A stretch of DNA of 31,938 nucleotides from positions 1-31,938 of IMG/VR virus record IMGVR_UViG_3300034521_000387; one strand, written 5' to 3'. Made by a program: the position numbers and the translations under genes. This document shows, in pieces, positions 5,894-29,764 of the stretch (positions are counted from its first letter, which is position 1; every line of letters starts with the position of its first letter). The notes under the pieces were generated by a model. That model was not told the origin of the DNA. It made no database searches and worked only from the letters and a program-made list of their open reading frames with translations. The DNA comes from a virus.

Positions 5894-5910
5894 ATTACCT
5901 TACAGGTAAT
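5894..5910. promoter_or_regulatory. Perfect operator-like palindrome ATTACC-N5-GGTAAT
   Basis: ATTACC-TTACA-GGTAAT is one of four perfect 17-bp copies in this window. It lies between the leftward tailspike gene and the rightward LexA-box gene, so it could control either. Its minus-strand continuation GGTAATAAAAT is also seen at the 29748 copy. Confidence 0.65.
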
Positions 5911-5946
5911 TTGCATTTCATGCTGGATAGTCCTGATATCTTCTGC

Positions 5947-5966
5947 TACTGTATGTTTATACAGTG
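5947..5966 (+). promoter_or_regulatory. LexA (SOS) box
   Basis: TACTGTATGTTTATACAGTG matches the enterobacterial LexA operator (CTG-N10-CAG with the preferred flanking TA and alternating AT core) at nearly every position. It sits 20 bp before the ATG of the rightward gene at 5986. The host LexA repressor would keep that gene off until DNA damage. A possible promoter is TTGCAT (5911-5916) with TGATAT 17 bp later, but I am unsure of it. Confidence 0.9.
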
Positions 5967-5985
5967 ATTGCATGGAGAAGAAGAG

Positions 5986-6246
5986 ATGCAACGGCAGTAT
6001 CACCATCCGCTGGAAGAAGGATTTGAGGAAAGAATACACACGCCGGTAGGCGTTAGGTCCCTGGTGGAGGACTCGCACCTGATGAAGTTACTGCGGGAAC
6101 TCGATAAAGATGGCTTCAATGTTGATGGGCCACTTGCTGAACTGGTTGCTCTTGTGAACTACGTCACAAGTTCTCAAATGACCATGCAGGATCTGCAAAC
6201 GCATCTCGATTACTGTGCGGAACAGTTACGCAGACAGATAACATGA
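5986..6246 (+). CDS. SOS-controlled small protein, candidate antirepressor
   Basis: This 86-residue protein starts MQRQYHHPLEE. The ATG at 5986 follows GGAGAAGAAGAG and lies 20 bp after a near-consensus LexA box, so the gene should be switched on by DNA damage. The protein is mostly helical and acidic in the middle (LLRELDKDGFNVDGPLAELVALVNYV) and has no membrane segment or signal peptide. In Gifsy, Fels-2 and 186-type phages, small LexA-controlled proteins (GfoA/GftA-type, Tum) bind the phage repressor and trigger induction. By analogy this is the best candidate for the SOS switch of this phage, since it is the only gene here with a LexA box. The function is inferred from regulation, not from recognised homology. 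Confidence 0.6.
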   Translation: MQRQYHHPLEEGFEERIHTPVGVRSLVEDSHLMKLLRELDKDGFNVDGPLAELVALVNYVTSSQMTMQDLQTHLDYCAEQLRRQIT

Positions 6247-6336
6247 GTGATTCTATAGGCTATGAGTAAATTAAAATGTAAACAGTGCTACACTAATTGG
6301 CGCCATAAATTAGTGGCCTACACATGGAAATAAGAA

Positions 6337-6489
6337 ATGAAAAAAGCATTAGCGATGCTATTTGTTCTGTTGTCTTTGGGTTTTGCTACACAGGCTTTTG
6401 CTGGAAACTGCCAGCACGACAGCGATACAGCTTCTGATGGATCGCGGTGCGGTGGTCGTTCTGCTGATTCTCGTCCTGGTGGGCGTTAA
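6337..6489 (+). CDS. Small exported protein, 50 residues
   Basis: This short gene encodes MKKALAMLFVLLSLGFATQAFA, a textbook signal peptide with an AFA cleavage site, followed by a mature peptide of about 28 residues rich in Gly, Ser, Asp and Arg with two cysteines (GNC...RCGG). The ATG at 6337 follows GGAAATAAG, a usable Shine-Dalgarno. Similar small exported proteins with a GNCQH...SDGSRCG pattern occur in enterobacterial phages and plasmids as I recall, with no known role. It lies downstream of the SOS gene in the same direction and ends 5 bp before a strong terminator. Whether it shares the SOS promoter or has its own in the 90-bp gap is not clear. Confidence 0.65.
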   Translation: MKKALAMLFVLLSLGFATQAFAGNCQHDSDTASDGSRCGGRSADSRPGGR

Positions 6490-6494
6490 AAATT

Positions 6495-6515
6495 AAGGCC
6501 GCTTCGGCGGCCTTT
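6495..6515. terminator. Bidirectional intrinsic terminator (UUCG loop)
   Basis: AAGGCCGC-TTCG-GCGGCCTT forms an 8-bp stem with a stable tetraloop. It is followed by T-rich sequence on the minus strand (TTAATTTTT) and a shorter T run on the plus strand. It closes both the rightward small-gene unit and the long leftward virion operon. Confidence 0.85.
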
Positions 6516-6527
6516 GTGACATGTCAC
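6516..6527. promoter_or_regulatory. GTGACATGTCAC palindrome between last gene and terminator (copy 1)
   Basis: This perfect 12-bp palindrome lies on the minus strand between the stop codon of the 46-residue membrane protein (6535) and the terminator. Identical copies at 24304 and 26668 occupy the same position, after the last stop and before a terminator, in two other units. Confidence 0.6.
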
Positions 6528-6534
6528 GCTCATT

Positions 6535-6675
6535 CTATGTAAGTCCGATGTACCCTGCTACACCAGATAATATTAAAACAACTGCGGCTGCAAACTCACC
6601 GTCTTCAATGATACCTTTACGGTTTATCAAGCCAAGTACGGAAATAACCAACACAACAAGAATGATAACAATCAT
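6535..6675 (-). CDS. Small membrane protein, 46 residues
   Basis: The frame encodes an N-terminal hydrophobic helix (MIVIILVVLVISVLGLI), a short polar turn (NRKGIIEDGE) and a second hydrophobic helix (AAAVVLILSGVAGYIGLT): a helical hairpin in the inner membrane. An AGGA lies 7 nt before the ATG. It is the last gene of the virion operon, 10 bp after the largest ejection protein, and is followed by the palindrome and terminator. I do not recognise it. A membrane role during DNA ejection or superinfection exclusion is conceivable but unsupported. Confidence 0.6.
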   Translation of the reverse strand: MIVIILVVLVISVLGLINRKGIIEDGEFAAAVVLILSGVAGYIGLT

Positions 6676-6685
6676 TTTCGCATCC

Positions 6686-9160
6686 TTATTGCGGAGTAAC
6701 ATCCTGAGGTCGCCACCAGTATGTCTGGTTAAATTCTTTCTTCGAACGCTGCTCCATCTTACGCAGATAGCCAGGGGAAAAATACTCCTGCATCTGGTTA
6801 AAGATCATATGATCAAGCGCAGCCTTTAGGTACCAGATGTTGGCACCAGGTGTCAGACCTTTTCCAAGCTTAACCAGATCACCACCAGTTTGCTCGCTCT
6901 TACCTTCTACCGCATTCAGCGGGATTCCCTGCCCGATCTTAATGACATCATCTACGAGACCAGCGACAGGCCCGAGCATTGAAGCCAGTGCGCCGCTTCC
7001 GTACCTGGTGTGATCCGACAGCAGGAAATCACCGTACAGGCCAAGACCACCGCCTTTCAGCAGAGCACCAAGCCAGAATTTAGCAGCATCTTCACCGGCC
7101 ATATCCCGCGGATTACGGCCTGATGCCATGTCATTTAGTTGCTGAGAAAGCGCGCCAAGTATTGTCGTGCTGGCTATAAACGTCGCGATATAAGCAGCCC
7201 GCCCACCAGCAGAAGGCATACCCATAGCCCGAGACCAGTGGCGCATCACAACAGAGATCGGGAATGACTTGAACAAGAATACGCTGCGGGTTAATTCACC
7301 TTTCCATGTTCCGCGCTGGATACCTGAACCGGTAACCATCTGCTCACGCGCACCCGGAGTTATCACAGCCATGTCAACTTCTTCGGTAACCGCTCCGAGT
7401 AACTTACGCATTGCTTCAAACTTCACGCGCTCCGGTGATCCGAGGTGCTCTACAGCAGCATCGGGTATACGCATGATGCTTTCCGGAGTCAGCATCGTAT
7501 CGTTGCCTTTCCCCCAGTCCTCCTGTTGCGCCAGCTTCCACACGCTCCAGTCGGTATCGGTGATTCCTTTGCTTTTCAGTATGCGGAAATCGTCATTAGA
7601 CAGGCTTTTCAGATCCGGTGTTCTGGTAACAACATCACCAAGACTGCCCATCATAGTGACACCGTAGGCACGCTTGTGCGCGTCGGACCACGCAGTTAAT
7701 CCACTGGCGCGCATAACCGCAGTTGCAGCCCACCGGGAGACAGACGGCCCCATATTATCCATCGCCCAGCGGTTAACGCTGCCGAGCAGTGATTCCATAG
7801 CCAAGCCAGCACGACGAGCCCTGGCCAATTCAGTGCGATTCGTTGGGTCCATAGCTTCAAGCTGGTTACGGAATAGCTGATTCATCGGAAGGTTGGTAAC
7901 CTTCGCTGACAGGTACATGGTTCCAAGATCAGAGAACGATGACAACAGCGCAGAACCGAGACGACTGGCAACCATCCAGTTGCGGATGTTATCCGACCAG
8001 CGCGCAATATGCGGGTTTGCAACAGGCTGAGTTTTACCAGAAATAAAGTTATACAGGTTCTCAGTATTGTTTGCCTGGCGCTCTATGCGACCGGTATCCT
8101 GCGGGTTAGCCGTAGCTGTCTCTGATTTTGTCTGATCCAGTAGTGAGTGGAACACATGATCCGGGTTTGGTCCGTAGGTTTCCACCAGCGCAATATCTTT
8201 ACTGATACCCTCCAGGTGCCCTACCATGATTTCCCAGAGTGATCGGTCGCCGTACATCTGCTGGTACTGGAGGTATGAATCAGCGTCTTTAAAGTGGATC
8301 TGGCGTGAGGCGTTGCCACGGTTTGCCCGCGCACCGGAAATACGCATACCGGTATCAGTGAGTTTATTCAGGCCACCTGTGGCAATCGTGTTATAGGCTT
8401 CACCGAGAAAAGCTGATAACTCAGTATCATTCATCAACTGGCCGTCGGCGCGTGTGTAATATTTGCGATCTAGTTTACCAATCACATCACTTACCCACTT
8501 ATCCTTCGATACTGCCCCAACCTTTTCCATAGAATGGTGCTGAGGTATACCCCAGTTTTCCAGATAGCCGATATCACCACCAGCATCATTAAACCTGCGG
8601 CGCAGTAGCTCAGTAACTTCGCCCCAGGCTTTCGCCCCTTTCATGGCTTTCGCATTTCCGGTTTTCTGGCCGCGCATCTCAAACACCAGATCACGGACTC
8701 CGGCTTCATCTTCAAACAGACCGAAGAAACGAGGATCAACAGCCTCGAACGCCTCCTGTAACTGGCTTAATGCGTAATCACGGGTCGCTTTCGTGCGTGA
8801 CTCAACAGAGAGAAAGTTTGATTTCCCGTCAGCGCTGAAGGCGATCGTGCGGTTGAGTGCTCCTAGCTTTCCGTCAGCACCCTGATAACTGTTAATGAAG
8901 TTGTCCAGGCGCTGACGCGCTGCGATGGTAAGCGCGACACGGCGTTTTTTCAGTGCCGCCTCTCGCTGCAACTCTTCAGCCGCCAGTTGCCCGGCTCGGC
9001 GCAGGCGTTCAGCGTCGTTAAGTTGACGCCATGACATCGGATCATCACGGGCAATAGACCGCATATTGCGGTAAATGCGGTCTTCTATATTCTGTATTTC
9101 TCGGGCTGTAAGAGTGCGCTGTGCTGCCTGTTGCACGGCCTGAATACATTCCTGTCTCAT
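6686..9160 (-). CDS. Large internal (ejection) protein, last of three
   Basis: This 824-residue protein is in the position of epsilon15 gp17, one of three proteins packed in the virion and ejected with the DNA to form a channel across the cell envelope. It is rich in Arg, Gln and Ala at the N-terminus, which looks helical and coiled. The middle is mixed, and a hydrophobic stretch occurs near residues 630-680 (AAYIATFIASTTILGALSQ, then FWLGALLKGGGLGLYGDFLL), which could enter the membrane. The start is supported by GAGAGGATAATTGA before the ATG. It follows the 600-residue ejection protein by 4 bp. The call is from gene order and size; I see no enzymatic motif. Confidence 0.75.
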   Translation of the reverse strand: MRQECIQAVQQAAQRTLTAREIQNIEDRIYRNMRSIARDDPMSWRQLNDAERLRRAGQLAAEELQREAALKKRRVALTIAARQRLDNFINSYQGADGKLGALNRTIAFSADGKSNFLSVESRTKATRDYALSQLQEAFEAVDPRFFGLFEDEAGVRDLVFEMRGQKTGNAKAMKGAKAWGEVTELLRRRFNDAGGDIGYLENWGIPQHHSMEKVGAVSKDKWVSDVIGKLDRKYYTRADGQLMNDTELSAFLGEAYNTIATGGLNKLTDTGMRISGARANRGNASRQIHFKDADSYLQYQQMYGDRSLWEIMVGHLEGISKDIALVETYGPNPDHVFHSLLDQTKSETATANPQDTGRIERQANNTENLYNFISGKTQPVANPHIARWSDNIRNWMVASRLGSALLSSFSDLGTMYLSAKVTNLPMNQLFRNQLEAMDPTNRTELARARRAGLAMESLLGSVNRWAMDNMGPSVSRWAATAVMRASGLTAWSDAHKRAYGVTMMGSLGDVVTRTPDLKSLSNDDFRILKSKGITDTDWSVWKLAQQEDWGKGNDTMLTPESIMRIPDAAVEHLGSPERVKFEAMRKLLGAVTEEVDMAVITPGAREQMVTGSGIQRGTWKGELTRSVFLFKSFPISVVMRHWSRAMGMPSAGGRAAYIATFIASTTILGALSQQLNDMASGRNPRDMAGEDAAKFWLGALLKGGGLGLYGDFLLSDHTRYGSGALASMLGPVAGLVDDVIKIGQGIPLNAVEGKSEQTGGDLVKLGKGLTPGANIWYLKAALDHMIFNQMQEYFSPGYLRKMEQRSKKEFNQTYWWRPQDVTPQ

Positions 9161-9164
9161 TCAA

Positions 9165-10967
9165 TTATCCTCTCAAGAAACACGCTACAGCCACGTCAAA
9201 AAGGCTGGAATCCTGTATTGCCTGCTCATTCTCTCTGCTCGCTTCGTCCAGCATTTCCCGAGCGCTTCTCGACTGCGGGTTTCCGTCATCATCCAGGACG
9301 GTGATAATCATGTCCGGAGACTCAACCAGTGAATCTTCAGCGATACGAAGATCCATATCTCCGGCCTGTTCAGCCGTTGGCCTTTGCTCTGCATGTCGCA
9401 ATACAGCACCAGGTTCAAAAGGTGCAGACTCGTCAGGAGTCCGTACTTCTGCTGTTTTATAGAATGATATGGCCTGTGCGTTAAGATCGCTTTCTGCCTG
9501 CTGGCGTCGTGCTAATTCCGCCCGCGCTTCAAAGTTAACCCCACCCTCAACATTCGCCGCCAGATTATCCTTTGCCGTCTGTAGTCTGACCGACTCGTCA
9601 TTGATACGCTGGTCAATATCACGCAGCCTTTCCTGACGCGCTACGCGTGCACGCGATAACTCGCGTCCGCTGCCTGAAGGTTGTTCGTTCATGACTCCTG
9701 AGCGTTCCTGGTTGAGTGTTTCAATGTATCGCTCAATACCGGCGATATCAGTCTGCAACTGATTAACCTGCTCAACGCCTAAAGCCTGAGCCGCTTGCTG
9801 TTCCAGCAATCTGGTATCAACAGCTATCTGAGTGCTTCCTTCTTCAGAGCGATACAGGGTTTCATCGATGGCCTGAGAAATAAGGTTTCTCCTCCCATGA
9901 ATATCGCTAAATGATGCTGGTTCGGCAATGCTGGACACATCAACTGCACGGCCCTGGCTTACGTCATTCATCGCCTTCTGTAGCGCCTGTATATGCGCAT
10001 CACGTGACAGGACATTAACAGGAACTCCAGGGGCTACATCAATCTCAGCGTGATGTGAGGCATTGGCTGCCAGCGCTGCATCCACCTCAGCCGGGGAAAA
10101 TTCAGGAGTTGCAGCGCTCTCACCGCGAGCGTTCAGGAACCTACCTACACCACCAAACGCCACACCAAGAACCGCATCGATGGCGATAGACTGGCGATCA
10201 AACACATCGTACTGAGCAGCCATTTCGTTATAACCGCCATCACGCAGCGTCTTTGCAGTAAGTCCGCGCTGCGCCATCCCAAAGGCAATGTTAGTTCCGG
10301 CTGCGTATGCGATATCTGGAGCTGCTCGAACAGCAGTAGCTGCAACATTACGCACAGCACTTTCACCTGTCCTCGCTAGTTGTGCGCCAACACTTTCTGC
10401 CAGCGCACCACCAGCGCGTAGACCGAGGCTCATAGGGATCAATGTGCCAGCGCCAGCAGTGACACCCTGCACCAGACCAGCTTCTTGAGCAGTCCTGAAA
10501 TCTACTCCCTGAGCAGTCAAGCGTTCAAACTCAGAGAAACCCTGCAACGCAGTGACGGCTGCAGCCCCGCCAGCAGGACCAGAAAGCAGTGTTCCTACTA
10601 CCGCCTGTCCGCCCATGTCGAACAGACCATGCAGAACCTGACCAGCAGTTCCTGTCGTAGCTGAGTCAGGCGTCAGGCGCTTTACCTGTTGCTCTGCGAG
10701 CTTACGTTGTTCGGCTATGTACTCAGCGGACGTGTCATTGATGGAAGTATTTTCGTTAACAAACTTCGCGATCGGTGAGACGATCTTATCCATTCCAGCC
10801 CAAAGAAGCTGGTCAGGTTTGGCAACCAGTCCAGAATACAGACCTGATACCGCAGCGGTACCTGAGTTATCGAAGAATCCGACATCGGTATTAAACCCTG
10901 CTGGGTTAGACGCTGCTTCATCCAGTTGCTGATTCTGGTTAACTGCGTTGAGACCAAAGTAACTCAT
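9165..10967 (-). CDS. Internal (ejection) protein, second of three
   Basis: This 600-residue protein matches the position of epsilon15 gp16. Residues of roughly 100-290 are very rich in Ala and Gly with long stretches of small hydrophobic residues (QAVVGTLLSGPAGGAAAVTAL), a pattern seen in ejection proteins that insert into membranes. Residues of about 380-500 are Gln/Glu/Arg-rich and probably coiled coil. Its ATG overlaps the stop of the upstream 836-residue protein (ATGA), so their synthesis is probably coupled. The role is inferred: part of the trans-envelope conduit during infection, carried inside the capsid. No catalytic motif is visible. Confidence 0.75.
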   Translation of the reverse strand: MSYFGLNAVNQNQQLDEAASNPAGFNTDVGFFDNSGTAAVSGLYSGLVAKPDQLLWAGMDKIVSPIAKFVNENTSINDTSAEYIAEQRKLAEQQVKRLTPDSATTGTAGQVLHGLFDMGGQAVVGTLLSGPAGGAAAVTALQGFSEFERLTAQGVDFRTAQEAGLVQGVTAGAGTLIPMSLGLRAGGALAESVGAQLARTGESAVRNVAATAVRAAPDIAYAAGTNIAFGMAQRGLTAKTLRDGGYNEMAAQYDVFDRQSIAIDAVLGVAFGGVGRFLNARGESAATPEFSPAEVDAALAANASHHAEIDVAPGVPVNVLSRDAHIQALQKAMNDVSQGRAVDVSSIAEPASFSDIHGRRNLISQAIDETLYRSEEGSTQIAVDTRLLEQQAAQALGVEQVNQLQTDIAGIERYIETLNQERSGVMNEQPSGSGRELSRARVARQERLRDIDQRINDESVRLQTAKDNLAANVEGGVNFEARAELARRQQAESDLNAQAISFYKTAEVRTPDESAPFEPGAVLRHAEQRPTAEQAGDMDLRIAEDSLVESPDMIITVLDDDGNPQSRSAREMLDEASRENEQAIQDSSLFDVAVACFLRG

Positions 10968-13474
10968 TGCGGGATCCCCTCTGAGAATCTCTGGCGCTGT
11001 TGGGTAAGATCAATGACGACAGGAGTTCCATCATCTTTCAGCAAATACCCAGTTCCTAGCTTCACAAGATACTGGCTATCTCCATAGCTTTGCAGACCAT
11101 ACTGCCCTGGTGGGGCCTTTATTCCAGCACCAGTCACCTGAGTTTTCCAGGCCTGATCAACTTGTTTATCAAATTGCTCGGCAGACATCCCCCACGGCAA
11201 CAGCACGCTGCCCATGCCGTTATAGTCATGTACGCCACCAGTAGCTACGTTAACAGCCTGCTTCCATGTGTCACTGTCAATCTCACCTGATACAACGCCC
11301 TTCTTCGCCATCACGCCAGCGTAATAATCCTTCGCTATCTCGTAGGCCATTGATGCGCCCTGCGCGTCACCGGCAAACGCATCCTTCACCATGTCAGAGA
11401 ACTCAAGACGAAGATCGTTATCTTTCGGCATTGGGATGCCTTTCACATCATCTGTACCTTTGCGAGCTGCTGCACCAGAAAGGATGGTTTGTGCTGCCGA
11501 TTCAGGTGATACAGAAACATCAGGGTTAAACCAGTTTTTCTCAGCCACAACACCGCCTGGCTTATCCATAAGGATCCCGGCGACAGCTGCCGATGGGGCA
11601 TTGGCGCTGATCTGCTGAAGCGCCGACATATATACCTGACCGCCTCCGGTGCTCTGCCGAATGGTGTCGAGATATGCAGACTGCTGAGAAACTGGTGCAT
11701 CGCGAAAGAAGGCACCTATTTGATTGGCTTCATCTTTGGAAAAGAACGTCAGCGGCGTGCCGTATGATTTAGCCAGATCTACAGCCTGAGACGCCCGAAG
11801 GGCAATCGTCTGGCTGAAATTGTTCTGGTTGGTCATATCGATAGGCTTTGTTTGCCCGGAAGAAAGTGAAAACTGAATTGGGTCTGCTTTACGTTGCGCG
11901 AGAACAGTACTGGCAGCAGAGACAACTGCGTCATAGGTTTTGGCGCGCGCTGCATATCCTTCACCAGTTTCACCGGTGTCTGGCTTCAGGTTTTCTACCG
12001 CAGCCTGAATGCTGCTGGTCGGCATATTGCGAAAGGATCCGATGTACTGCCCAGCTATCTGTGTGTTGCGAAACTCTGTGTAGCGGAGATTGCCTTCACG
12101 CACGCCGTAGGCAGCGAGGAAGTCGTTCTGCGTGGGGGCATCAGGGAAGTCAACGCCGCGCATGTATGCCGCGCTGGCATCGCGCACACGGCTGTCGATA
12201 TTGGTGCGATATTCCGCCTGTTGCTGCTTGCGGATCTGGTCAGCCTGGCGAAGGAACGTCGCCTGAGCCTCCGGAGATGCAGCGTCAAATGCCGCGTTGC
12301 CGGTATAGCGCTTTGTGCTGGTAGGAAGTTGTGATAGACCTATGGCCGCGCTAACGCCGGTAGCGAGCTGCTGATCGCTGTACGGCTGGCTGCCGTTCTC
12401 ATGTTGGATAATGGAGGCACACAAAGCCTTTAGCGTGTCAGGGTTTGATGCATCAAGCGGCTGATCAGGCGTTACGCCGAGCTGCGCACATACCGCCTGA
12501 ATATAGGCGTCGGTGTTATTATTGTCAGACGGCGGCGCCCAGCGGTTAATGATGTCGTTGACAGTATCAATGCCCTGCCTCTGGTACGACAGTAGATTGC
12601 GGCCCAGCGCTCGGATGCCGTGTTCTGGAGTTTCGAACTTGGCAAAGCGACCATCATCACCGGTCTGGCCTACCCACGGATTGGTTTTGCTGTACTCAAG
12701 GTTGCCTGGGTTATTATTGCGAATGCCACGGGCGCTATCACCAGAACCACCATCTGATACCGCACGGCGGGAGCCGGTAACTGTATCGCTTAACTCACCA
12801 TTGCTCTGAATGAACTCGATGGAGTTGTTGGCTGACCACTGCGACAGTGACGCGTCGGCGACCTTCTCCTTGAACTCGATCTTCTTGGCCTGAATCTGCT
12901 CAGTACTCCAGCCATGCGCGGCACCGTAATCTTCAATCTGCTGAAATGTCTGCTGGTTGTAGAGTACATAGTTGTCATTGTCGCCGTAGGCGGCGGCAGC
13001 CAGTTTACCGTTGTTCGCCAGCATCGCCTGGAACTGCCCTTCTTCATAGGCATTAAGTTGGCTTATCTCATGTCGTCCAGCCTGGGTAGTGAACTGAATG
13101 CGCTGCTGCTGCGCCTGCTGCATAAAACCAGCCCGGGCACCTTCCGGCAGTGTCATCGCGATCTGCTCTGCCTGAGCATCGAACTGTTGGGTGTACTCCT
13201 GACCTTTGCCGAGCGCATTTTTACCATGGAGATTCAGCAGCCCGGTATCCGGGTTAGTCAGCAGATCACTGGAAATCTGGCTGAGTTGCAATGAGGCATC
13301 CTGAGCCTGAGCAACATCTGCGCGCTGCTTTGCCTGTGCAAAAACATCGACATATTTATCCGCAACCCCACCTAAAACATCGCCCATCTGTGGAGTATTA
13401 AATGTTTGTAGGCCTGGAGACTGAAACCCGCGACTTTCAACCTGACGACCAGTGACTGTTGGTACTGTTGGCAT
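10964..13474 (-). CDS. Internal (ejection) protein with peptidoglycan-hydrolase-like domain, first of three
   Basis: This 836-residue protein is in the position of epsilon15 gp15. The N-terminal 240 residues are Gln/Ala-rich and helical. At about residues 249-258, RGIRNNNPGN begins a domain (to about 370) seen in phage structural proteins that open the murein layer. It includes the ...VGQTGDDGRFAKFETPEHGIRALGRNLLSYQ region and the C-terminal SIIQHENG, where the Glu may be catalytic. The remainder is helical with no motif I recognise. A strong Shine-Dalgarno (AGGAGATACCGAA) precedes the ATG. The likely job is local peptidoglycan digestion so that the other ejection proteins and DNA can pass. 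The enzymatic class is inferred. Confidence 0.78.
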   Translation of the reverse strand: MPTVPTVTGRQVESRGFQSPGLQTFNTPQMGDVLGGVADKYVDVFAQAKQRADVAQAQDASLQLSQISSDLLTNPDTGLLNLHGKNALGKGQEYTQQFDAQAEQIAMTLPEGARAGFMQQAQQQRIQFTTQAGRHEISQLNAYEEGQFQAMLANNGKLAAAAYGDNDNYVLYNQQTFQQIEDYGAAHGWSTEQIQAKKIEFKEKVADASLSQWSANNSIEFIQSNGELSDTVTGSRRAVSDGGSGDSARGIRNNNPGNLEYSKTNPWVGQTGDDGRFAKFETPEHGIRALGRNLLSYQRQGIDTVNDIINRWAPPSDNNNTDAYIQAVCAQLGVTPDQPLDASNPDTLKALCASIIQHENGSQPYSDQQLATGVSAAIGLSQLPTSTKRYTGNAAFDAASPEAQATFLRQADQIRKQQQAEYRTNIDSRVRDASAAYMRGVDFPDAPTQNDFLAAYGVREGNLRYTEFRNTQIAGQYIGSFRNMPTSSIQAAVENLKPDTGETGEGYAARAKTYDAVVSAASTVLAQRKADPIQFSLSSGQTKPIDMTNQNNFSQTIALRASQAVDLAKSYGTPLTFFSKDEANQIGAFFRDAPVSQQSAYLDTIRQSTGGGQVYMSALQQISANAPSAAVAGILMDKPGGVVAEKNWFNPDVSVSPESAAQTILSGAAARKGTDDVKGIPMPKDNDLRLEFSDMVKDAFAGDAQGASMAYEIAKDYYAGVMAKKGVVSGEIDSDTWKQAVNVATGGVHDYNGMGSVLLPWGMSAEQFDKQVDQAWKTQVTGAGIKAPPGQYGLQSYGDSQYLVKLGTGYLLKDDGTPVVIDLTQQRQRFSEGIPQ

Positions 13475-13486
13475 TTCGGTATCTCC

Positions 13487-19021: not shown

Positions 19022-20008
19022 TTAAACAACGCGCGCTTCTGTTTCCAGAATCGCATCGGTTTCACGGATTGGGATGCCACGGAAAGTGGTCCACCATTCG
19101 CCTTCAGTCTCTTTGACGGACAGAGCAAGAGAGGCTTTATCCAGAGATTGCAGGTCGAGTGCCTGGGCAACGGTACGGTTCATGTAGAAAGCCGCGCGGC
19201 CCATCTTCAGGTTAGGAACGCGGTGCAGCGCTTTAACCATCTGGGTAACGATGTTTGCAGCAGAAGCTGGAACAGACAGATCGCTCACATCGATATTGGC
19301 GATGCGAACAACGTAGCGCCAGTCACGCAGTGTCAGGCCGTTATCCCACTTGTAGTGAGTTCGGTAACCCTGATATTGACCACCAGCAGAATCACGCAGA
19401 GTCTGCTCACCGAGATCTTGCATCTGCAGACCGGCTTTCTGGCCTTTAGGGAAAATACCGTGAACAGTGTTTTCACCCCACACAACCAGCCAGATAGAAG
19501 TGTTATCAGTACCGGTGCCGCCAGCGTCGATAATGTTCTGACCGTTACCTGCTGATTTACTGGAATAACGGGATGCCAGCCCCATAAACTGCTGCGGGTT
19601 AACGCTGGTATCACCATAGAACAGGGTCTGAGCCATCTTCTGGTTCATTGCCTCAAGGAATGCCCGGTCTTCAGACAGACGGAATTCAGAGGTGTTACCA
19701 TTCAGATCTGCCAGAGACTTATCGATTTCAGCATAGGTTTCCAGCATACCCATGGTGTCAGTCACCTGAGCTGTGGTGCTTTTGCTGTTCGGTACGCCAT
19801 AGTTCAGGAGACGCCATGTCGCATCAGGAAGGCCAGTGCGTACAGTGGTTTTGTGACCGGTTGGAGAGTTACTCTCCATGATCATCATGTCCAGGAGAAT
19901 TGGGTTGGTCTGGGAAAGCAGTTCGATAATTTTATCGACTTTCCCGTTTGGGTCGATGCGCTTACCCCAGTCTGCCAGCGTCAGCGCAGTTAAGCCTTTA
20001 ACAGCCAT
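19022..20008 (-). CDS. Major capsid protein, epsilon15 gp7-like
   Basis: This 328-residue protein (epsilon15 gp7 is 335 residues as recalled) forms the icosahedral shell with an HK97-type fold. It starts MAVKGLTALTLADWGKRIDP and has the conserved core TGHKTTVRTGLPDATWRLLNYGVP (about 50-73), the block FYGDTSVNPQQFMGLASRY, and a C-terminal stretch ending FRGIPIRETDAILETEARVV. There is no visible N-terminal scaffold fusion. The separate acidic gene just upstream probably supplies scaffolding. The Shine-Dalgarno AGAGGAAA lies 6 nt from the ATG. A 52-bp gap without a hairpin separates it from the cement gene. Confidence 0.9.
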   Translation of the reverse strand: MAVKGLTALTLADWGKRIDPNGKVDKIIELLSQTNPILLDMMIMESNSPTGHKTTVRTGLPDATWRLLNYGVPNSKSTTAQVTDTMGMLETYAEIDKSLADLNGNTSEFRLSEDRAFLEAMNQKMAQTLFYGDTSVNPQQFMGLASRYSSKSAGNGQNIIDAGGTGTDNTSIWLVVWGENTVHGIFPKGQKAGLQMQDLGEQTLRDSAGGQYQGYRTHYKWDNGLTLRDWRYVVRIANIDVSDLSVPASAANIVTQMVKALHRVPNLKMGRAAFYMNRTVAQALDLQSLDKASLALSVKETEGEWWTTFRGIPIRETDAILETEARVV

Positions 20009-20022
20009 GGTTATTTCCTCTC

Positions 20023-20745: not shown

Positions 20746-20747
20746 GG

Positions 20748-22711: not shown

Positions 22712-22725
22712 CTCTGCCTACTCCG

Positions 22726-22932: not shown

Positions 22933-22959
22933 AGCAATAGCTCCGTACGCAATTAAATT

Positions 22960-22984
22960 ATTACCAATTTAACCACATATGATT
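22960..22984. promoter_or_regulatory. ATTACC half-site plus AACC-N6-GATT palindrome before head operon
   Basis: ATTACC (22960-22965) and AACC-ACATAT-GATT (22971-22984) lie 28-52 bp upstream of the first head gene. The pair parallels 5843-5868. On the minus strand the half-site reads GGTAATAAT, which could overlap a -10 element of the leftward head-operon promoter. Confidence 0.42.
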
Positions 22985-23000
22985 TATTTAGCGTAGGCTA

Positions 23001-23038
23001 TTGACACTTATAACATCAGATATTACCTTTTAGGTAAT
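23001..23038 (+). promoter_or_regulatory. Candidate rightward promoter overlapped by operator palindrome
   Basis: A consensus -35 TTGACA (23001-23006) is followed by weak -10 candidates at 23021-23029, within or beside the perfect palindrome ATTACC-TTTTA-GGTAAT (23022-23038). A regulator bound there would occlude the promoter or replace -10 contacts. Transcription from here would run into the structured region that begins a few bases downstream. The -35 and palindrome are certain; their function is inferred. Confidence 0.55.
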
Positions 23039-23040
23039 TG

Positions 23041-23859: not shown

Positions 23860-23870
23860 AAGGTGAGATT

Positions 23871-24299
23871 ATGAAAACAGCTGATATGTTGGCTACGTAT
23901 TTAGACGCATGGCCAAGCAAATACATCAGAATCTTTCAGGGTAGTGACTCCATTTTTTATGGTGAAGAATCTATCGGCGAAACTGATTTAGTAATAACTA
24001 AGGCAATACCCGGTGAACAACTGGCAGGGTTAATGCTGAGTGAAGATGCTGGAACGTGCATCACCTGTCAGGAGTGGGTTGCTGCACGTATGTCGGCAAT
24101 GGAAAAGGGTGATGTGCCTGATATTTCTCGTGCCTACGTCAATAAAGAAAAAAGTGATGATGATTACATACGCGAACACTTATACAACATGAAGTTGCAA
24201 TGTCTGCATGCGGCGCTTATTCAGAATGGGCAATTCGATAAAACCACTGCCACCAACATTGCGGAAGCCATCAACGCTGGATTTGATGCCATCAAGTAA
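23871..24299 (+). CDS. Unrecognised 142-residue protein downstream of the structured RNA
   Basis: This soluble, acidic protein begins MKTADMLATYLDAWPSKYIRIFQGSD and has no signal peptide or membrane segment. A central CITCQEW carries two cysteines; the second half is helical (DDDYIREHLYNMKLQCLHAALIQNGQFDKTTATNIAEAINAGFDAI). I do not recognise a family. It has a good Shine-Dalgarno (AGGTGAG) placed directly after the T run of the RNA's terminator, so without a promoter in the gap its mRNA can arise only by read-through. It has its own palindrome and terminator at the 3' end. With the RNA it forms a rightward cassette inserted in the leftward terminase-portal order. A role tied to the RNA, for example as binding partner or regulator, is a guess from linkage. 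Confidence 0.72.
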   Translation: MKTADMLATYLDAWPSKYIRIFQGSDSIFYGEESIGETDLVITKAIPGEQLAGLMLSEDAGTCITCQEWVAARMSAMEKGDVPDISRAYVNKEKSDDDYIREHLYNMKLQCLHAALIQNGQFDKTTATNIAEAINAGFDAIK

Positions 24300-24303
24300 C
24301 GCC

Positions 24304-24315
24304 GTGACATGTCAC
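24304..24315. promoter_or_regulatory. GTGACATGTCAC palindrome between stop codon and terminator (copy 2)
   Basis: This is identical to 6516-6527 and 26668-26679. Here it follows the stop of the rightward 142-residue gene by 4 nt and precedes its terminator by 4 nt. Confidence 0.6.
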
Positions 24316-24319
24316 AATT

Positions 24320-24347
24320 AGCCCGCCGACTATGGCGGCTTTGTTTT
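24320..24347 (+). terminator. Intrinsic terminator of the RNA/142-residue cassette
   Basis: AGCC(C)GCC-GACTAT-GGCGGCT followed by TTGTTTT. From GCCGACTAT to the T run it matches the minus-strand terminator at 26618-26645, so the two are copies of one element. A second hairpin AACCCGC/GCGGGTT (24348-24369) follows. A third, GGCGC/GCGCC with a T-rich tail (24470-24495), lies just before the convergent end of the large terminase gene. The rest of the gap to 24500 shows nothing recognisable. Confidence 0.8.
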
Positions 24348-24500
24348 AACCCGCGAAAAGTTGCGGGTTCAAGCATATGATTTTGTTCCAAAATGCTAAA
24401 AGGCACTTTGGAAATTTCATCGACAAAAGCCGGTAATCCGTCTGAACCGATTAACTATCTGGTTAACCAGGCGCAATTTTGCGCCCATTTATTTTATTAA

Positions 24501-25982
24501 CTATTTCCACGGGTCATAATCAGTCAGCGCCTTACCCTGCTGGCTTTGCTGCTGCCCATAGTTGAACTGTTTTTTGGTGACCGGAGCGGCATAAGTCAGC
24601 ACATAGGCGTCGGCATTGTTCGGTGACCGGCCAAGCAATTCTTTCACCTCGTCCTTATCCTGTAAAATCTTCCTGCTGTCCTTCAGCCTGACTTTGTATT
24701 CAGGTGCGCTCAGTTCGTCGGCAAGTTCCTGGCTATCCAGTTGAGCCCCTAGCTTCAGCGCATCGCGGGCGGATTTGTACATCTCGCCGCGCTTATTGCC
24801 CATCTCGGGATCTGCCGTACCGCTGCCGAACATTATCAGCGTCCAGTTGCGCCCCCAGTTGTCGCCAACGGATTTTAGCCCTGTCCCATAGCCGTAATCG
24901 ATAAACACAGCATCAGCCTGGTACTGGTCCTCGAAGTCGGCAATCACTTTCGCAAACAGCACATCGTCGGTGGTACGCTGCCACTCCCCAAGTTTCTTGC
25001 AGTGCAGTCCCTGCCGCAGGTAGATAACTGCCGGGTCTTTCCCCTGGTGAGACGGGTCGACGCCAAGAACTACAGCAGCGTGCTGGACCTGTGCCGGAGT
25101 GATAACCCTGCCAACAGCTGGTTGCGTCAGGCCGGAAGGAATGAACTGGTTTTCAGAAGCGTCAGGAAAGATCCCGCGCACACGGACCTTCACGAAGTCG
25201 CTGTCCTCGCCGTAGTCGTCCACCCATTTTTGCATTTGCTCCTTGTTGGTGCCTTCAACGGTGCGGGAATCAATCTGCGCACACTTCCATCGGTGTTTAT
25301 ATTTACGGAAGCATTCACGGAAACGCCCGGTGTTACGTGTCGGGTTCCCGAACGCCACCCAGATAATCTCTGTGTCTTCGTCCGTCAGCGCCCCCTCTGC
25401 TACCTCCCACACCAGATCGGCAATGTTGGACGCTTCATCGAATACCACGATGATGCGCTTACGCTCGTTGTGCAGCCCGGCGAACGCCTCGGTGTTGTGT
25501 TCAGACCATGGGATAGCGTCAGCGCGCCAGCGTTTATCGTGACCGGGATCATTGCTGTACATCGCTGTGGCGGTGCAGGTGAACCACTCCTTAGTGATAG
25601 CCAGGTTCGACCATTTGATGATTTCCGGCCAGGTCTTGGTACGCAACTGATTGTCGGTGTTGGCGGTTACCACCACCTTGCAATCCTCGCAGGTGGACAT
25701 GCCCCAATTGATGAGCATCGAGATGAAAGCAGATTTACCGATGCCGTGACCGGATGCGCGGGCCAGCATCAGCGGCTGGTGACGGGTAGCAGGATTCTGT
25801 AGATGGTCGCGTATCTCGCGGAATGCATCAGCCTGCCATTTTCGCGGGCCGGTGGCATGCTCCAGTTCTGTCCCCTCTTCGCCCCACGGGAATGCATACA
25901 GCGAATATCCCAGCGGGTCATACGTGAACGAGGCGATATCTTCTACGAGCTGCTCTTCCGGCGACATGGCTTCGACTGTCAT
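24501..25982 (-). CDS. terL: Terminase large subunit
   Basis: This 493-residue ATPase-nuclease motor packages DNA into the procapsid. The Walker A motif GHGIGKS is at residues 78-84. Walker B VVFDEAS is at 179-185, with catalytic Glu183, and is followed by the coupling motif FGNPT (211-215). The C-terminal RNase H-like nuclease shows acidic residues in VLGVDPS (Asp309), VFIDYGYG (Asp362) and NADAYVLTY (Asp458). All key elements of both domains are present. The ATG overlaps the terS stop (ATGA). In many relatives the next gene is the small pre-portal protein; here a rightward RNA cassette of 1.5 kb intervenes. Confidence 0.95.
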   Translation of the reverse strand: MTVEAMSPEEQLVEDIASFTYDPLGYSLYAFPWGEEGTELEHATGPRKWQADAFREIRDHLQNPATRHQPLMLARASGHGIGKSAFISMLINWGMSTCEDCKVVVTANTDNQLRTKTWPEIIKWSNLAITKEWFTCTATAMYSNDPGHDKRWRADAIPWSEHNTEAFAGLHNERKRIIVVFDEASNIADLVWEVAEGALTDEDTEIIWVAFGNPTRNTGRFRECFRKYKHRWKCAQIDSRTVEGTNKEQMQKWVDDYGEDSDFVKVRVRGIFPDASENQFIPSGLTQPAVGRVITPAQVQHAAVVLGVDPSHQGKDPAVIYLRQGLHCKKLGEWQRTTDDVLFAKVIADFEDQYQADAVFIDYGYGTGLKSVGDNWGRNWTLIMFGSGTADPEMGNKRGEMYKSARDALKLGAQLDSQELADELSAPEYKVRLKDSRKILQDKDEVKELLGRSPNNADAYVLTYAAPVTKKQFNYGQQQSQQGKALTDYDPWK

Positions 25983-26572
25983 TCTTCACCACCAGCCTGC
26001 TCTTTCACGCGACGGCGGGCCTTCGCCATGCGGTCGGCAATGGTGACGGTGCCGGAAACCTCCAGGCGCTCTTTGAACGCGTTGACGTCGACGTGCTTAC
26101 CGATAAGCTCGAGATTCCTCACCTTGTCAGGCCATTTGATTTTTTTGAGGATTGTCTCTATCGATGTCTCATCCATGTTCATGATGGTCGATGACAGGTC
26201 GAAACCGCTCAGCGTGGTACGCCATATCTTGGGCCACTCGCGGATCGGCTTCAGCGTGCCGTCATCGTTGAGGATATCCAGCACATCCATCTGGTCTATT
26301 TCCACCAGGCGGAGCAGCACGTAATCAGCACTGACGCGTAAACGCTTGTTGCGCTCCTCCATCAGCTCGGCGATCCGTTTCTGGATGCGCTCATCTCGCA
26401 TCATGACACTGGCCTTGACCGCTGCCGTATTAGGTGAGAACCCTGCGTTAATCGCTGCCTGCGTCTGATTCTCAGGGCATTTGGTATATTCCTGCGCATA
26501 AGCCTCCTGCATCGCTGTCAGTGGCTTGTACTGCGTTGATTTGCGTTTTGGTGCTTTTGGTTCTGCGGGCAT
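25979..26572 (-). CDS. terS: Terminase small subunit
   Basis: This 197-residue protein recognises the packaging site on phage DNA. The start MPAEPKAPKRKSTQ at 26572 is chosen because the in-frame extension upstream runs through an operator palindrome and a terminator. The segment LTAMQEAYAQEYTKCPENQTQAAINAGFSPNTAAVKAS is the helix-turn-helix of Terminase_2-type small subunits. A helical oligomerisation region and a basic tail (RMAKARRRVKEQ) follow. The Shine-Dalgarno is poor (CGGTGG). It is the first gene after the terminator that separates the accessory/replication genes from the late genes. Confidence 0.88.
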   Translation of the reverse strand: MPAEPKAPKRKSTQYKPLTAMQEAYAQEYTKCPENQTQAAINAGFSPNTAAVKASVMMRDERIQKRIAELMEERNKRLRVSADYVLLRLVEIDQMDVLDILNDDGTLKPIREWPKIWRTTLSGFDLSSTIMNMDETSIETILKKIKWPDKVRNLELIGKHVDVNAFKERLEVSGTVTIADRMAKARRRVKEQAGGEE

Positions 26573-26591
26573 TGTTACCACCGAAGTAATA

Positions 26592-26608
26592 ATTACCGTT
26601 TTGGTAAT
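26592..26608. promoter_or_regulatory. Perfect operator-like palindrome ATTACC-N5-GGTAAT before terS
   Basis: ATTACC-GTTTT-GGTAAT sits 20 bp upstream of the terS start and just downstream of a terminator. This is where a leftward late promoter would be expected. Confidence 0.65.
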
Positions 26609-26617
26609 AGTAACACG

Positions 26618-26645
26618 CAAAACAAAGCCGCCATAGTCGGCGGCC
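26618..26645 (-). terminator. Intrinsic terminator separating early/accessory from late genes
   Basis: On the minus strand GCCGCC-GACTAT-GGCGGC is followed by TTTGTTTT. The loop, right arm and T run match the terminator at 24320-24347 on the opposite strand. It should stop transcription from the accessory genes before terS, unless an antiterminator or a promoter at 26592 acts. Confidence 0.85.
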
Positions 26646-26667
26646 ATTGCAATTTATTGTCGCTATC

Positions 26668-26679
26668 GTGACATGTCAC
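26668..26679. promoter_or_regulatory. GTGACATGTCAC palindrome overlapping a stop codon, before a terminator (copy 3)
   Basis: The TGA stop of the gene ending at 26676 is part of this palindrome. The terminator stem begins 23 bp downstream on the minus strand. It is the third copy of the end-of-unit element. Confidence 0.6.
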
Positions 26680-27014
26680 ACTGATAATTTAGTCTCATGC
26701 CAGCCACGCGTCACCCAACATGCCGAATCACCGTCGCACGGGCATGACTCAACCGGCAGCGAATCGCCGCACTTACCACAGCGGTTAGCACTGATTGACT
26801 TAATACGACCACTAGCGCGGGCATCATCCTGGCGGATAAGCAGCGCGATGTACTCGCTCATTTCATACGGCGCACGACCAGGGCGACGGGCGGCGCAGTT
26901 CCGCGCCAACATCTCCAGTTCCTGCTCATCTATCACGAGTTCAATCTTGCGCTCGCCAGCGGCAGACTGGCGGCCCCGCTGCGCTGCTTTGCGTTCTGCT
27001 GCGGACTTAGCCAT
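26676..27014 (-). CDS. Small basic protein with possible ribbon-helix-helix and Zn-ribbon
   Basis: This 112-residue protein starts MAKSAAERKAAQRGRQSAAGERKIELVIDEQELEMLARNCAARRP. The basic start followed by a short beta-like ELVIDEQELEMLARN segment resembles small DNA-binding proteins seen in enterobacterial phages. The C-terminal third holds RCGKCGDSLPVESCPCDGDSACW, with enough Cys pairs for a zinc site. It overlaps the preceding gene by TAATG. It is the last gene before the terminator and terS, so a regulatory role in the early-to-late switch would fit, but this is inference. Confidence 0.6.
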   Translation of the reverse strand: MAKSAAERKAAQRGRQSAAGERKIELVIDEQELEMLARNCAARRPGRAPYEMSEYIALLIRQDDARASGRIKSISANRCGKCGDSLPVESCPCDGDSACWVTRGWHETKLSV

Positions 27015-27241
27015 TACTCATCATCCTCATCCCAATCATCGTCGTTATCATCTACCGACCACAAAAGCGAATTAGTTGCCTTGCTAGCTTGTCTTGCATA
27101 TCCACTGCGCCCAAGACTTCTCAAAACGTTGTATATTTCAAACATTTCGGTTCGCTCATCGCCGATGTCTAGATCACAGGCCAGTTTGTGACATTCGGTA
27201 GCGAGCGATGCCACCTTCTGAAGGAGTTCGGATTTGTTCAC
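27014..27241 (-). CDS. Unknown 75-residue acidic-tailed protein
   Basis: It starts with GTG after the excellent Shine-Dalgarno AGGAGGTGA, overlapping the stop of the DUF551-type gene (GTGA). Residues 1-55 are helical (MNKSELLQKVASLATECHKLACDLDIGDERTEMFEIYNVLRSLG) and the last 13 residues are almost all Asp/Glu. I do not recognise it. Acidic tails of this kind occur in DNA-mimic and nucleoid-interacting proteins, but there is no further support here. Confidence 0.6.
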   Translation of the reverse strand: MNKSELLQKVASLATECHKLACDLDIGDERTEMFEIYNVLRSLGRSGYARQASKATNSLLWSVDDNDDDWDEDDE

Positions 27242-27999
27242 GACTTCACCTCCTGCTTAGGTTCTGCTGGAAGTGGCATCCAGTGAGTTGGTTTGCAATA
27301 AACGCCACCACCATTCGGAAGCGATGCAAACCTAAACCATCCCTCTGTTTCATTTCGTTCCATGTAGCCAACCATCTGCTCTTTCTTATCAGCGCAGTAA
27401 ACCTGCACATCAACATCGCGTTCCGGCATCCGCTCGCTTACCGGAATCCAACCATCAGGAATCACCGGAGAGTTGCCATCCTCATACGCAACGCGTAACC
27501 AGTGGAAAAACACCTCCGTCATTACGCATCCACACTCGACGTCAATGGTTCCTGTTTGCTGTGATAGCCACTGCTCGAATGGCAACTTGCAATCGCCCTT
27601 TTCGTTGGCATCACCAGAATGGTCTACCATGTCGAGGTGTTGCTCGGTATGGTTGCCAGCCTGAAGCATGGCGGCGCGGCAGGAGTTCCATCCATCAACA
27701 TAAGCTTGTGGTCTACCGAACTCACGCGGCCCTGTGTGCGCAGGCAATTCATCCGGCACCGTTGGCTGCGGCAACTGTGGTGCTGCGTAGAGTGCCCTTA
27801 CCTGTTCTCCATTTGCTCGAAGTGAAAATACCTCTCCAGGCTCTACATCCACCCATACGCCAGCCTCTTTGCAGGCCTGATACACAGGCTCCTGCTCCAT
27901 GCTGGCGAGTAGCTGGCGGGCCATGGCTGCGGCATCACAGCATTGAACGTGATCGGTTTCCACTATCTGCTGCAACTGCTCTTTGGTGAATTTGGCCAT
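27238..27999 (-). CDS. DUF551-containing accessory protein
   Basis: This 253-residue protein is a mosaic. Its N-terminus (MAKFTKEQLQQIVETD..., then ...LYAAPQ) and middle (YVDGWNSCRAAML) are typical of accessory proteins of lambdoid phages. The C-terminal 60 residues carry WIPVSERMPERDVDVQVYC ... THWMPLP, the DUF551 signature. None has a known biochemical function. Such genes sit in the nin-like/accessory region of many Salmonella and E. coli prophages and recombine as modules. AAGGAC precedes the ATG. Confidence 0.75.
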   Translation of the reverse strand: MAKFTKEQLQQIVETDHVQCCDAAAMARQLLASMEQEPVYQACKEAGVWVDVEPGEVFSLRANGEQVRALYAAPQLPQPTVPDELPAHTGPREFGRPQAYVDGWNSCRAAMLQAGNHTEQHLDMVDHSGDANEKGDCKLPFEQWLSQQTGTIDVECGCVMTEVFFHWLRVAYEDGNSPVIPDGWIPVSERMPERDVDVQVYCADKKEQMVGYMERNETEGWFRFASLPNGGGVYCKPTHWMPLPAEPKQEVKS

Positions 28000-28002
28000 G
28001 GG

Positions 28003-28191
28003 TTAGTCCTTACCGATAACTGCGTTAATTTGATTGAGAACGATATCTGTCATCAGGCCTTTACCGTTTACAGCAACGTGGGCCAGAATTTCACTGCGTG
28101 CGGCTTTGAGTGTTCCGACGCTCACCATGACAATTCTCTGATTATCTTTGCTTGCAGACTTCAAGCGCTCTAAAGGAGATTTGTCAGCCAT
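28003..28191 (-). CDS. Unknown 62-residue protein
   Basis: The ATG at 28191 is used because GGGGG lies just upstream; it overlaps the preceding stop as TGATG. The product (MADKSPLERLKSASKDNQRIVMVSVGTLKAARSEIL) is mixed helix and strand and has no motif. The compact overlap with neighbours makes it a probable true gene. I do not recognise the family. Confidence 0.5.
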   Translation of the reverse strand: MADKSPLERLKSASKDNQRIVMVSVGTLKAARSEILAHVAVNGKGLMTDIVLNQINAVIGKD

Positions 28192-28586
28192 CAATCCCCC
28201 TTCACGCCAATGCCAGCGTAGATCAGTTTGGTATTCACGTCGCCTTCAAAAATAGGCAGCACACCAATAGCAGCAGCCCAGTTTTTAGCTAACTCAGGGT
28301 CTGATGTCTCATCGGTGTAATCTGATGCCCGCCACCCAATCAGTCGTTTCTGACCAGGAATGTCAGAGTTTCGCTTCTCCGTTGCTTGCTCCAGAGCATT
28401 AAGAAGTGTCCGTATTTCCTGCTGCTGAGTAGAGATTGTTGAGTCTTTGGCTTCCAGTTCATCCAGCAGCGCCAGCACAACCTCTGGGGTTATAGCATCA
28501 TTGAATTCGTCGCGGTCATAACCCCAACTATCGGATGCTGCTCTCTCCGCCGCTTCACGCAGCGCCTGTTTGTTGAGTGCTGTCAT
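28191..28586 (-). CDS. Ead/Ea22-like accessory protein
   Basis: This 131-residue protein has the arrangement LREAAERAA...ITPEVVLALLDELEAKDSTISTQQQEIRTLLNALEQ, a helix with an Ala/Glu/Leu coiled coil, characteristic of Ead/Ea22-like proteins in lambdoid phages. The C-terminal AIGVLPIFEGDVNTKLIYAG is a frequent tail. The function is unknown. Its start overlaps the stop of the winged-helix gene upstream (ATGA). Confidence 0.62.
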   Translation of the reverse strand: MTALNKQALREAAERAASDSWGYDRDEFNDAITPEVVLALLDELEAKDSTISTQQQEIRTLLNALEQATEKRNSDIPGQKRLIGWRASDYTDETSDPELAKNWAAAIGVLPIFEGDVNTKLIYAGIGVKGD

Positions 28587-28795
28587 TGGGCTGCCTCCCA
28601 GCAGATTTGAACCGCATAACTGGTTTTAACGCGCTTAACCACGCCAATTGCCTCAAGCTTTTTCAGGCGGCGCAATACGTACGCAGTTTGAAGTGAGCGA
28701 TAGTCATCGCGAAGCCAGTTAGTAGCTACGTATGTCATGCATGGACCTCGACGCTTCAGTATCGCAATGATTTCTTCATCAGTTGGCTTGCTCAT
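28583..28795 (-). CDS. Small winged-helix DNA-binding protein candidate
   Basis: This 70-residue protein reads as one winged helix: helix (TDEEIIAILKRRGPCMTYVATNWL), recognition region (RSLQTAYVLRRLKKLEAIGVVKRV) and a beta-hairpin (KTSYAVQICWEA). It could be a transcriptional regulator or a replication accessory. It overlaps both neighbours by ATGA, so it is produced with them. The target is unknown. Confidence 0.6.
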   Translation of the reverse strand: MSKPTDEEIIAILKRRGPCMTYVATNWLRDDYRSLQTAYVLRRLKKLEAIGVVKRVKTSYAVQICWEAAQ

Positions 28796-29277
28796 AGCGC
28801 GGCTCCTTTGCGAAGTTGGGCGGCGAACTCGTTGGCCACCGCTGAATATGGATGCTCATTACCACCGACAACCTTCAGGCTAGCAGCGAACAGTTCCACA
28901 CCCTGCGCCCGCACTTCAGCCAGGAAAGCGTCTGTCGCAGTGGTTTTGACATCGCACATGAATTCAAGCGCATCGCTCCCATCAAGATTGCAGAACTCCC
29001 ATACAGACGAATAGAACTCGATACCAGGCCAGGTTGCGAGCTTATTCATTTTGTCATTCAGCGTTACATTCTCCGCCGCCAGCTCCCTGCACTTGCTCTC
29101 GGCGTTAGCGAGCTGTACTGCCATGTTGGTTGAGCGAACAAACTGCACTTCAAGCTGTGTAGCCAGATCGCTAATCAGTTGCGCCAGGCTGCGCACGTCG
29201 ACAGCACCGCATGATGCTTTCAGCTCAGCCGCGCGCTCATGTCCTAACTTCGCTAACTCAATGATATTGCTTCCCAT
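28792..29277 (-). CDS. Coiled-coil accessory protein
   Basis: This 161-residue protein starts MGSNIIELAKLGHERAAELKASCGAVD. A coiled coil of about 50 residues follows (LAQLISDLATQLEVQFVRSTNMAVQLANAESKCRELAAENVTL), then a region with DVKTTATDAFLAEVRAQGVE, common in accessory proteins of Salmonella and E. coli phages (Ead-like group). The function is unknown. The Shine-Dalgarno GAGGG is right before the ATG. It is the first of the overlapping accessory genes. Confidence 0.6.
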   Translation of the reverse strand: MGSNIIELAKLGHERAAELKASCGAVDVRSLAQLISDLATQLEVQFVRSTNMAVQLANAESKCRELAAENVTLNDKMNKLATWPGIEFYSSVWEFCNLDGSDALEFMCDVKTTATDAFLAEVRAQGVELFAASLKVVGGNEHPYSAVANEFAAQLRKGAAL

Positions 29278-29338
29278 TATTACCCTCGCTTACCCGTATA
29301 AGTTATTGATTAGGTTGATAACTAAAAGGATCGTCGAT

Positions 29339-29683
29339 TTAGAACTCTTCGACGCTCCACCCGCCACCCGCTTTCTTTGGCTTAACCGTTACCCCGATGA
29401 TGCGAAACGGGTACTGGTCTGCTGCGACTTTTGTTTTCACCCTGGCATCGTCGGTCCAGAAGCCTTTCACCTCATGCAGTTCCATCTCGCCGGTGGTTAG
29501 CATCACTGCGAAATCAGGCGTATAGAACGTGTTATCAGCCAAGCGCAACTTGATGCCTTCGAACCGATACCAGGCGATTTCCCCGGCATGCTTGCGTAAC
29601 TCCAGATGCTGGCAGTAAGCCGATTCGGTTTTATTCATCTGGCCAGTTTTGAGCCTTCCGAGTGCCTGCAACTGCCTTTTCAT
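29339..29683 (-). CDS. DUF1064 protein, predicted PD-(D/E)xK nuclease
   Basis: This 114-residue protein has the active-site pattern of restriction-endonuclease-like nucleases: Glu20 in the first helix, Pro56-Asp57 in YTPDF, and Glu71-Val-Lys73 in HEVKG. The family (DUF1064) is found near replication genes of phages and may act as a Holliday-junction or flap nuclease, like RusA in other phages. This is inference from fold and location. The gene lies after P and is preceded by two operator-like palindromes; the nearer one covers the Shine-Dalgarno region (GAGAGG). Confidence 0.75.
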   Translation of the reverse strand: MKRQLQALGRLKTGQMNKTESAYCQHLELRKHAGEIAWYRFEGIKLRLADNTFYTPDFAVMLTTGEMELHEVKGFWTDDARVKTKVAADQYPFRIIGVTVKPKKAGGGWSVEEF

Positions 29684-29685
29684 GA

Positions 29686-29702
29686 TTTACCTCTCAGGTA
29701 AT
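29686..29702. promoter_or_regulatory. Near-perfect ATTACC-type palindrome at the DUF1064 start
   Basis: TTTACC-TCTCA-GGTAAT differs from the family at one base and ends 2 bp before the ATG, overlapping the ribosome-binding region. It could block transcription and, at RNA level, hide the Shine-Dalgarno. Confidence 0.55.
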
Positions 29703-29747
29703 TTAAATCCACAAATGAGTTAATTTCAATAGCAATGCGCATATTTT

Positions 29748-29764
29748 ATTACCTTTTTGGTAAT
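29748..29764. promoter_or_regulatory. Perfect operator-like palindrome ATTACC-N5-GGTAAT
   Basis: ATTACC-TTTTT-GGTAAT lies in the 117-bp gap between the P-like gene and the DUF1064 gene, about 46 bp from the degenerate copy. A minus-strand TATAAT (29762-29767) overlaps its edge. A pair of sites here suggests a regulated internal promoter for the DUF1064 and accessory genes. Confidence 0.65.

Follow-up and report, generated by a model that had tools for sequence, protein, structure and literature searches.

The closest described system is the Rep-Ant switch of phage SPC32H (crystal structures 5d50 and 5d4z), in which Ant is the protein co-crystallised with the repressor Rep (5d50). PMC9638917 describes the DNA-binding form of SPC32H Rep as a tetramer, with weak binding by the dimer, and states that one tetramer is sufficient for repression by way of a trans dimer. 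A LexA-controlled induction route is known for the SPC32H ant gene (Kim and Ryu 2013, as cited in PMC7380047). In the related phage ZX5, overexpression of the repressor lowered the transcripts of holin and endolysin by over 99.9% (PMC9782041), a result that favours the Rep assignment made below but could be an indirect effect. For phage epsilon15, the GenBank record (AY150271) carries seven 'protein_bind, repressor, lysogeny' features. Operators of lambda-type CI repressors are confined to OL and OR. The c1 repressor of phage P1 has operators dispersed over many operons, as is proposed here, but its sites are asymmetric and the repressor is of another type, unlike the ATTACC-N5-GGTAAT system. 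Cluster A mycobacteriophages also combine one repressor with many dispersed sites, the stoperators, which stop elongation. These are asymmetric and, for the most part, share one orientation with respect to transcription (PMC6550527), and PMC9283540 likewise describes them as asymmetric and mostly oriented.

The window, which is the whole stretch of 31,938 nucleotides analysed here, is a 31.9-kb virus record and a fragment of an epsilon15-like phage (Uetakevirus). Its closest matches are SPN1S and SPC32H, with ~89% identity over 69% of the first 25 kb, followed by epsilon15, Tyrion, and phiV10. The end of the window falls inside the gp39 gene, adjoining the place of rep, and thus the repressor gene, OL, and OR lie outside this fragment; rep is present in all relatives that include its region. 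A pattern search for ATTACC-N5-GGTAAT, whose 12 fixed bases form a perfect inverted repeat, found four perfect 17-bp copies, one copy with a single mismatch (TTTACC...GGTAAT), and one with two mismatches, each in a gap and each at the position given in the first-pass annotation, together with one further degenerate copy. They are listed below, and here and in the later lists a strand is given where one was assigned.

5894..5910: putative Rep operator in the tailspike/ant gap, perfect; its orthologue in epsilon15 (19895-19911) is annotated 'repressor'
23022..23038: perfect copy ahead of the head operon, putative Rep operator (epsilon15 2931-2947)
26592..26608: putative Rep operator overlapping the terminase promoter, perfect (epsilon15 11-27)
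26574..26590: degenerate tandem copy with two mismatches, 18 bp from 26592; likewise a tandem copy in epsilon15 (29-45)
29748..29764: perfect copy ahead of the DUF1064 gene, putative Rep operator 1 (epsilon15 35906-35922)
29686..29702: putative Rep operator 2, one mismatch, 62 bp from operator 1, over the proposed -10/start
31648..31664: degenerate putative Rep operator with two mismatches in the gp39/gp40 gap (epsilon15 33728, SPN1S 34803, phiV10 33111)

No perfect copy arose in 400 simulated sequences (Markov-1, with the dinucleotide composition of the window), in which copies with at most one mismatch had a mean of 0.035 and a maximum of 1, so that the earlier statement of a frequency far above chance is upheld. 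ATTACC is also the sole recurring 6-N5-6 inverted repeat within the window. The terminase copy is intergenic only with the TerS start at 26572, which is the start annotated in epsilon15; the mechanical open reading frame and the phiV10 and SPN1S annotations begin TerS further upstream, and the copy would then fall inside the gene. In epsilon15, all seven perfect sites and all 11 sites with at most one mismatch are fully intergenic, although only 6.6% of that genome is intergenic (binomial 1e-13). The label 'head operon/RNA' previously given to one gap stands for the head operon and has to be dropped for the RNA, since neither ARAGORN nor Rfam gave an RNA gene in the head gap or elsewhere in the window.

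Collectively, the palindromes are very probably the operators of the epsilon15/SPC32H-type lysogeny repressor Rep (epsilon15 gp38), by which both early and late operons would be repressed. This assignment, made by sequence comparison, is favoured because the seven identical epsilon15 sites are annotated as repressor sites for lysogeny, and four of them are orthologous to the four perfect copies of the window. All seven read ATTACC-N5-GGTAAT, two being annotated one base short, and the two phages share the 17-bp consensus, the gene order, and the places of the sites at the terminase, head, tailspike, and DUF1064/RuvC genes. To the seven sites marked in the epsilon15 record we add those at 35968 (the partner of 35906), at 33340, 33357, and 33387, all three degenerate and within the rep-gp39 gap, and at 24703 before the lysis operon, as well as half-sites. 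The palindromes are thus a real operator family, but one already known in kind and annotation; what seems to be new is how the sites are arranged as pairs and half-sites, together with a second palindrome, and the motif strings, as text, did not occur in the literature searched.

The Rep assignment is also favoured because all loci in which a repressor was detected carry a Rep homologue, 36-100% identical to that of epsilon15, and the site consensus is unchanged even where Rep has ~36-45% overall identity. The putative recognition helix is conserved around NLV[NS]RW and reads TLISRW in the most distant Rep. Epsilon15 Rep matches both SPC32H Rep structures, 5d50_A over its full length. A search for an epsilon15-like locus with an unrelated repressor, which would serve as a natural test of co-change between site and repressor, found none, two Rep-less records being perhaps incomplete. 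In the collections searched, Rep invariably accompanies the epsilon15 late genes, and this co-occurrence therefore cannot separate Rep from other regulators conserved in these phages.

Conservation of the sites was examined in a set of 89 loci around terL, drawn from bacterial genomes and viral contigs, to which the window and five reference phages were added, a site being counted with at most two mismatches. This motif scan of related phages, already proposed in the first-pass annotation, found the head site in 87 of 87 testable sequences and the terminase site in 86 of 86, and it adds to the Rep assignment. The head site lies 327 bp before portal in 70 of the 87 loci. After removal of near-identical sequences, which left 24 for the head and 20 for the terminase site, the mean information content at the two sites was 1.82 and 1.90 bits for the 12 fixed bases, 1.28 and 0.80 bits for N5, and 0.81 and 0.79 bits for the flanks. 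At the head site the left side is unconserved, whereas the right side is an almost invariant block; this block, downstream of the operator at 22960-23006, hardly varies across genera.

The sites overlap or flank promoters that are predicted from sequence, for which the features in the window are as follows.

5843..5848, minus strand: GGTAAT half-site on the downstream side of the tailspike operator, in a second-site register ~51 bp away; also in epsilon15, phiV10, and Tyrion (~50 bp)
22960..23006, minus strand: near-invariant block TGTCAATAGCCTACG...CATATGTGGTTAAATTGGTAATA, with a terminal GGTAAT half-site that keeps the 62-bp register to the operator (column conservation and sequence)
26607..26615, minus strand: extended -10 TGtTACTAT of a proposed terminase promoter, overlapped by the operator; TG.TA.TAT is conserved
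29701..29729, minus strand: proposed sigma70 promoter TTGAAA-17-TTAAAT between both DUF1064 operators, its geometry conserved in relatives
29339..29683, minus strand: DUF1064-type gene (phrog_190, Holliday junction resolvase family)

The commonest site-to-site distance is by far 62 bp, for which the 123 counted cases are not independent because many of the sequences are related. Such pairs are found at OL, where a spacing of 63-64 bp is tolerated through A-tract length, and before the DUF1064/RuvC gene. Both pairs enclose a CTATTGA... -35, with the downstream site starting 21 nt after it, over the -10/start, and this bracketing is a further reason for regarding the palindromes as Rep operators. 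The head gap has only a GGTAAT half where the downstream full site would stand, in the same 62-bp register; the GGTAAT half at the tailspike lies at 50-51 bp. The terminase site overlaps the extended -10 just past a terminator-like hairpin. The block at 22960..23006 is probably the head late promoter, and likely an unusual one without a -35 consensus. A conserved TTGACA on the other strand suggested a promoter pointing away from the head operon, which was rejected for want of a fitting -10 at 15-18 bp. The operator at 29686-29702 contains a Shine-Dalgarno-like GAGAGG by the DUF1064 start, so that operator and ribosome site overlap. A 12-bp palindrome, GTGACATGTCAC, has three exact copies in gaps (starts 6516, 24304, and 26668), each within ~40 bp of a GC-rich terminator-like hairpin.

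In the proposed mechanism, Rep would occupy sites at the PL, PR, DUF1064, terminase, head, and tailspike promoters, silencing early and late operons in the lysogen instead of repressing PL and PR alone. This differs from lambda-type CI operators, since the present sites are not confined to OL and OR. At the terminase promoter the Rep site would cover the -10/start region, and at PL and DUF1064 the two sites 62 bp apart (~six turns) would bracket the promoter, which would fit a small loop or binding by a single bivalent tetramer. At the head and tailspike promoters the second site would have shrunk to a GGTAAT half. What the analysis shows is where the sites lie, how well they are conserved, that they overlap predicted promoters, and that an ant gene is present, whereas occupancy by Rep, looping, and direct repression of each operon are what we infer; the trans-dimer tetramer may instead mean one palindrome per tetramer, not a 62-bp bridge.

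A second dispersed palindrome, AACC-ATATRT-GGTT, which is unannotated in epsilon15, lies at fixed distances from most operators. The copies in the window are listed with the genes of two proteins that are candidates for reading it.

31630..31643: second palindrome AACCATATACGGTT, 21 bp from the operator, in the gp39/gp40 gap
22971..22984: copy AATCATATGTGGTT of the second palindrome, 54 bp from the operator and within the head promoter block
5855..5868: second palindrome, degenerate (three mismatches), 42 bp from the tailspike operator
1858..1871: second palindrome AACCATATACGGTT, at the lysis operon promoter, where the Rep operator is cut down to a GGTAAT half-site
31717..31938, minus strand: Cro-like gp39 gene, 3' part, its start beyond the window; its relative has a predicted helix-turn-helix fold
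26676..27014, minus strand: gp49 homologue, phrog_536 transcriptional regulator, placed as a late regulator gene would be; candidate for reading the second palindrome

Across several phages, the distances to Rep sites are 21 bp (gp39/gp40 gap and OL), 42 bp (tailspike), 45 bp (lysis), and 54 bp (head), and the palindrome also occurs in the -35/-10 spacer of PL (phiV10 and Tyrion) and of the DUF1064 promoter. Among 156 matches with at most two mismatches across loci, 127 lie within 80 bp of a Rep site, compared to 0-2 for shuffled palindromes, although 78 of the 127 belong to the shared head block, which limits their independence. The palindrome is absent from epsilon15 OL and degenerate at several places, as at the tailspike of the window. 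The gp49 gene is conserved and lies just before terminase, and its homologue in the window is a candidate late regulator. Its helix arrangement might be that of a ribbon-helix-helix region, and the conserved cysteines that follow (CGKCG...C) suggest a zinc ribbon. A structure search with a gp49 model of middling confidence gave no clear fold match, and assignment to the Mor/C type was discarded, there being no sequence support in Pfam, NCBIfam, or PDB. It is a tentative and rather doubtful proposal that two dispersed systems, Rep sites and AACC-ATATRT-GGTT, are superimposed at early and late promoters, the second at constant and roughly helix-phased spacing from the first, and that gp49 or gp39 reads the second, turning early promoters off and late promoters on after removal of Rep.

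The Cro-like gp39 might also bind the ATTACC-N5-GGTAAT sites themselves, so that one set would serve both regulators, as lambda Cro shares the CI operators. We regard such sharing as a real possibility, though not the expected outcome: gp39 is a predicted lambda-repressor-like helix-turn-helix protein and adjoins the three degenerate sites in the epsilon15 rep-gp39 gap, but AACC-ATATRT-GGTT is available as another target for it, and the present results tie neither motif to gp39. Binding of a late-promoter activator, a comparison drawn in the first-pass annotation, would fit sites that precede the terminase, head, and tailspike operons but is very unlikely, because the same sites flank the early PL and DUF1064/RuvC promoters and occur in the rep/gp39 gap, and because the terminase site covers the -10/start, which is the place of a repressor. 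Its other comparison was to mycobacteriophage stoperators. Sites halting elongating RNA polymerase genome-wide would fit one repressor with many dispersed sites, as in cluster A mycobacteriophages, but this reading is hardly credible and was ruled out on symmetry and position, the present sites being symmetric and at promoters in gaps. A host transcription factor, for which a 12-base palindrome would be a typical bacterial operator, has a negligible probability and was ruled out, because the 25 perfect copies in six bacterial genomes with such a prophage (3.9-5.7 Mb) lie almost all in or beside it. This clustering in the prophage and not in the host chromosome is also a reason for the Rep assignment, and the earlier view of a regulon-wide operator set is supported by it, by the same sites at orthologous promoters in relatives, and by their annotation as repressor sites in epsilon15.

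The Rep assignment is finally favoured because the window encodes the Ant partner seen in 5d50 behind a LexA-like box.

5986..6246, plus strand: ant, an 86-aa antirepressor homologous to SPC32H Ant (5d50_E, E 1.3e-53)
5947..5966: LexA-like box CACTGTATAAACATACAGTA, near-consensus, in front of ant (sequence)

SPC32H carries ant at the same place. As for the Rep operators of epsilon15 and SPC32H, the palindrome lies at orthologous annotated positions, is conserved in relatives with a Rep homologue, and is accompanied by a cognate Ant gene. An induction route of the SPC32H type is likely in this phage because the ant homologue sits behind the near-consensus LexA box; DNA damage would free ant from LexA, and Ant would then take Rep off all sites together.

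In this temperate phage, one and the same repressor appears to occupy late structural promoters in addition to early ones. If true, this would explain the need of such prophages for an antirepressor that empties all sites simultaneously. The 62-bp pair spacing provides a direct prediction for how the tetrameric repressor engages DNA, and the second palindrome gives a concrete handle on late-gene control in epsilon15-like phages.
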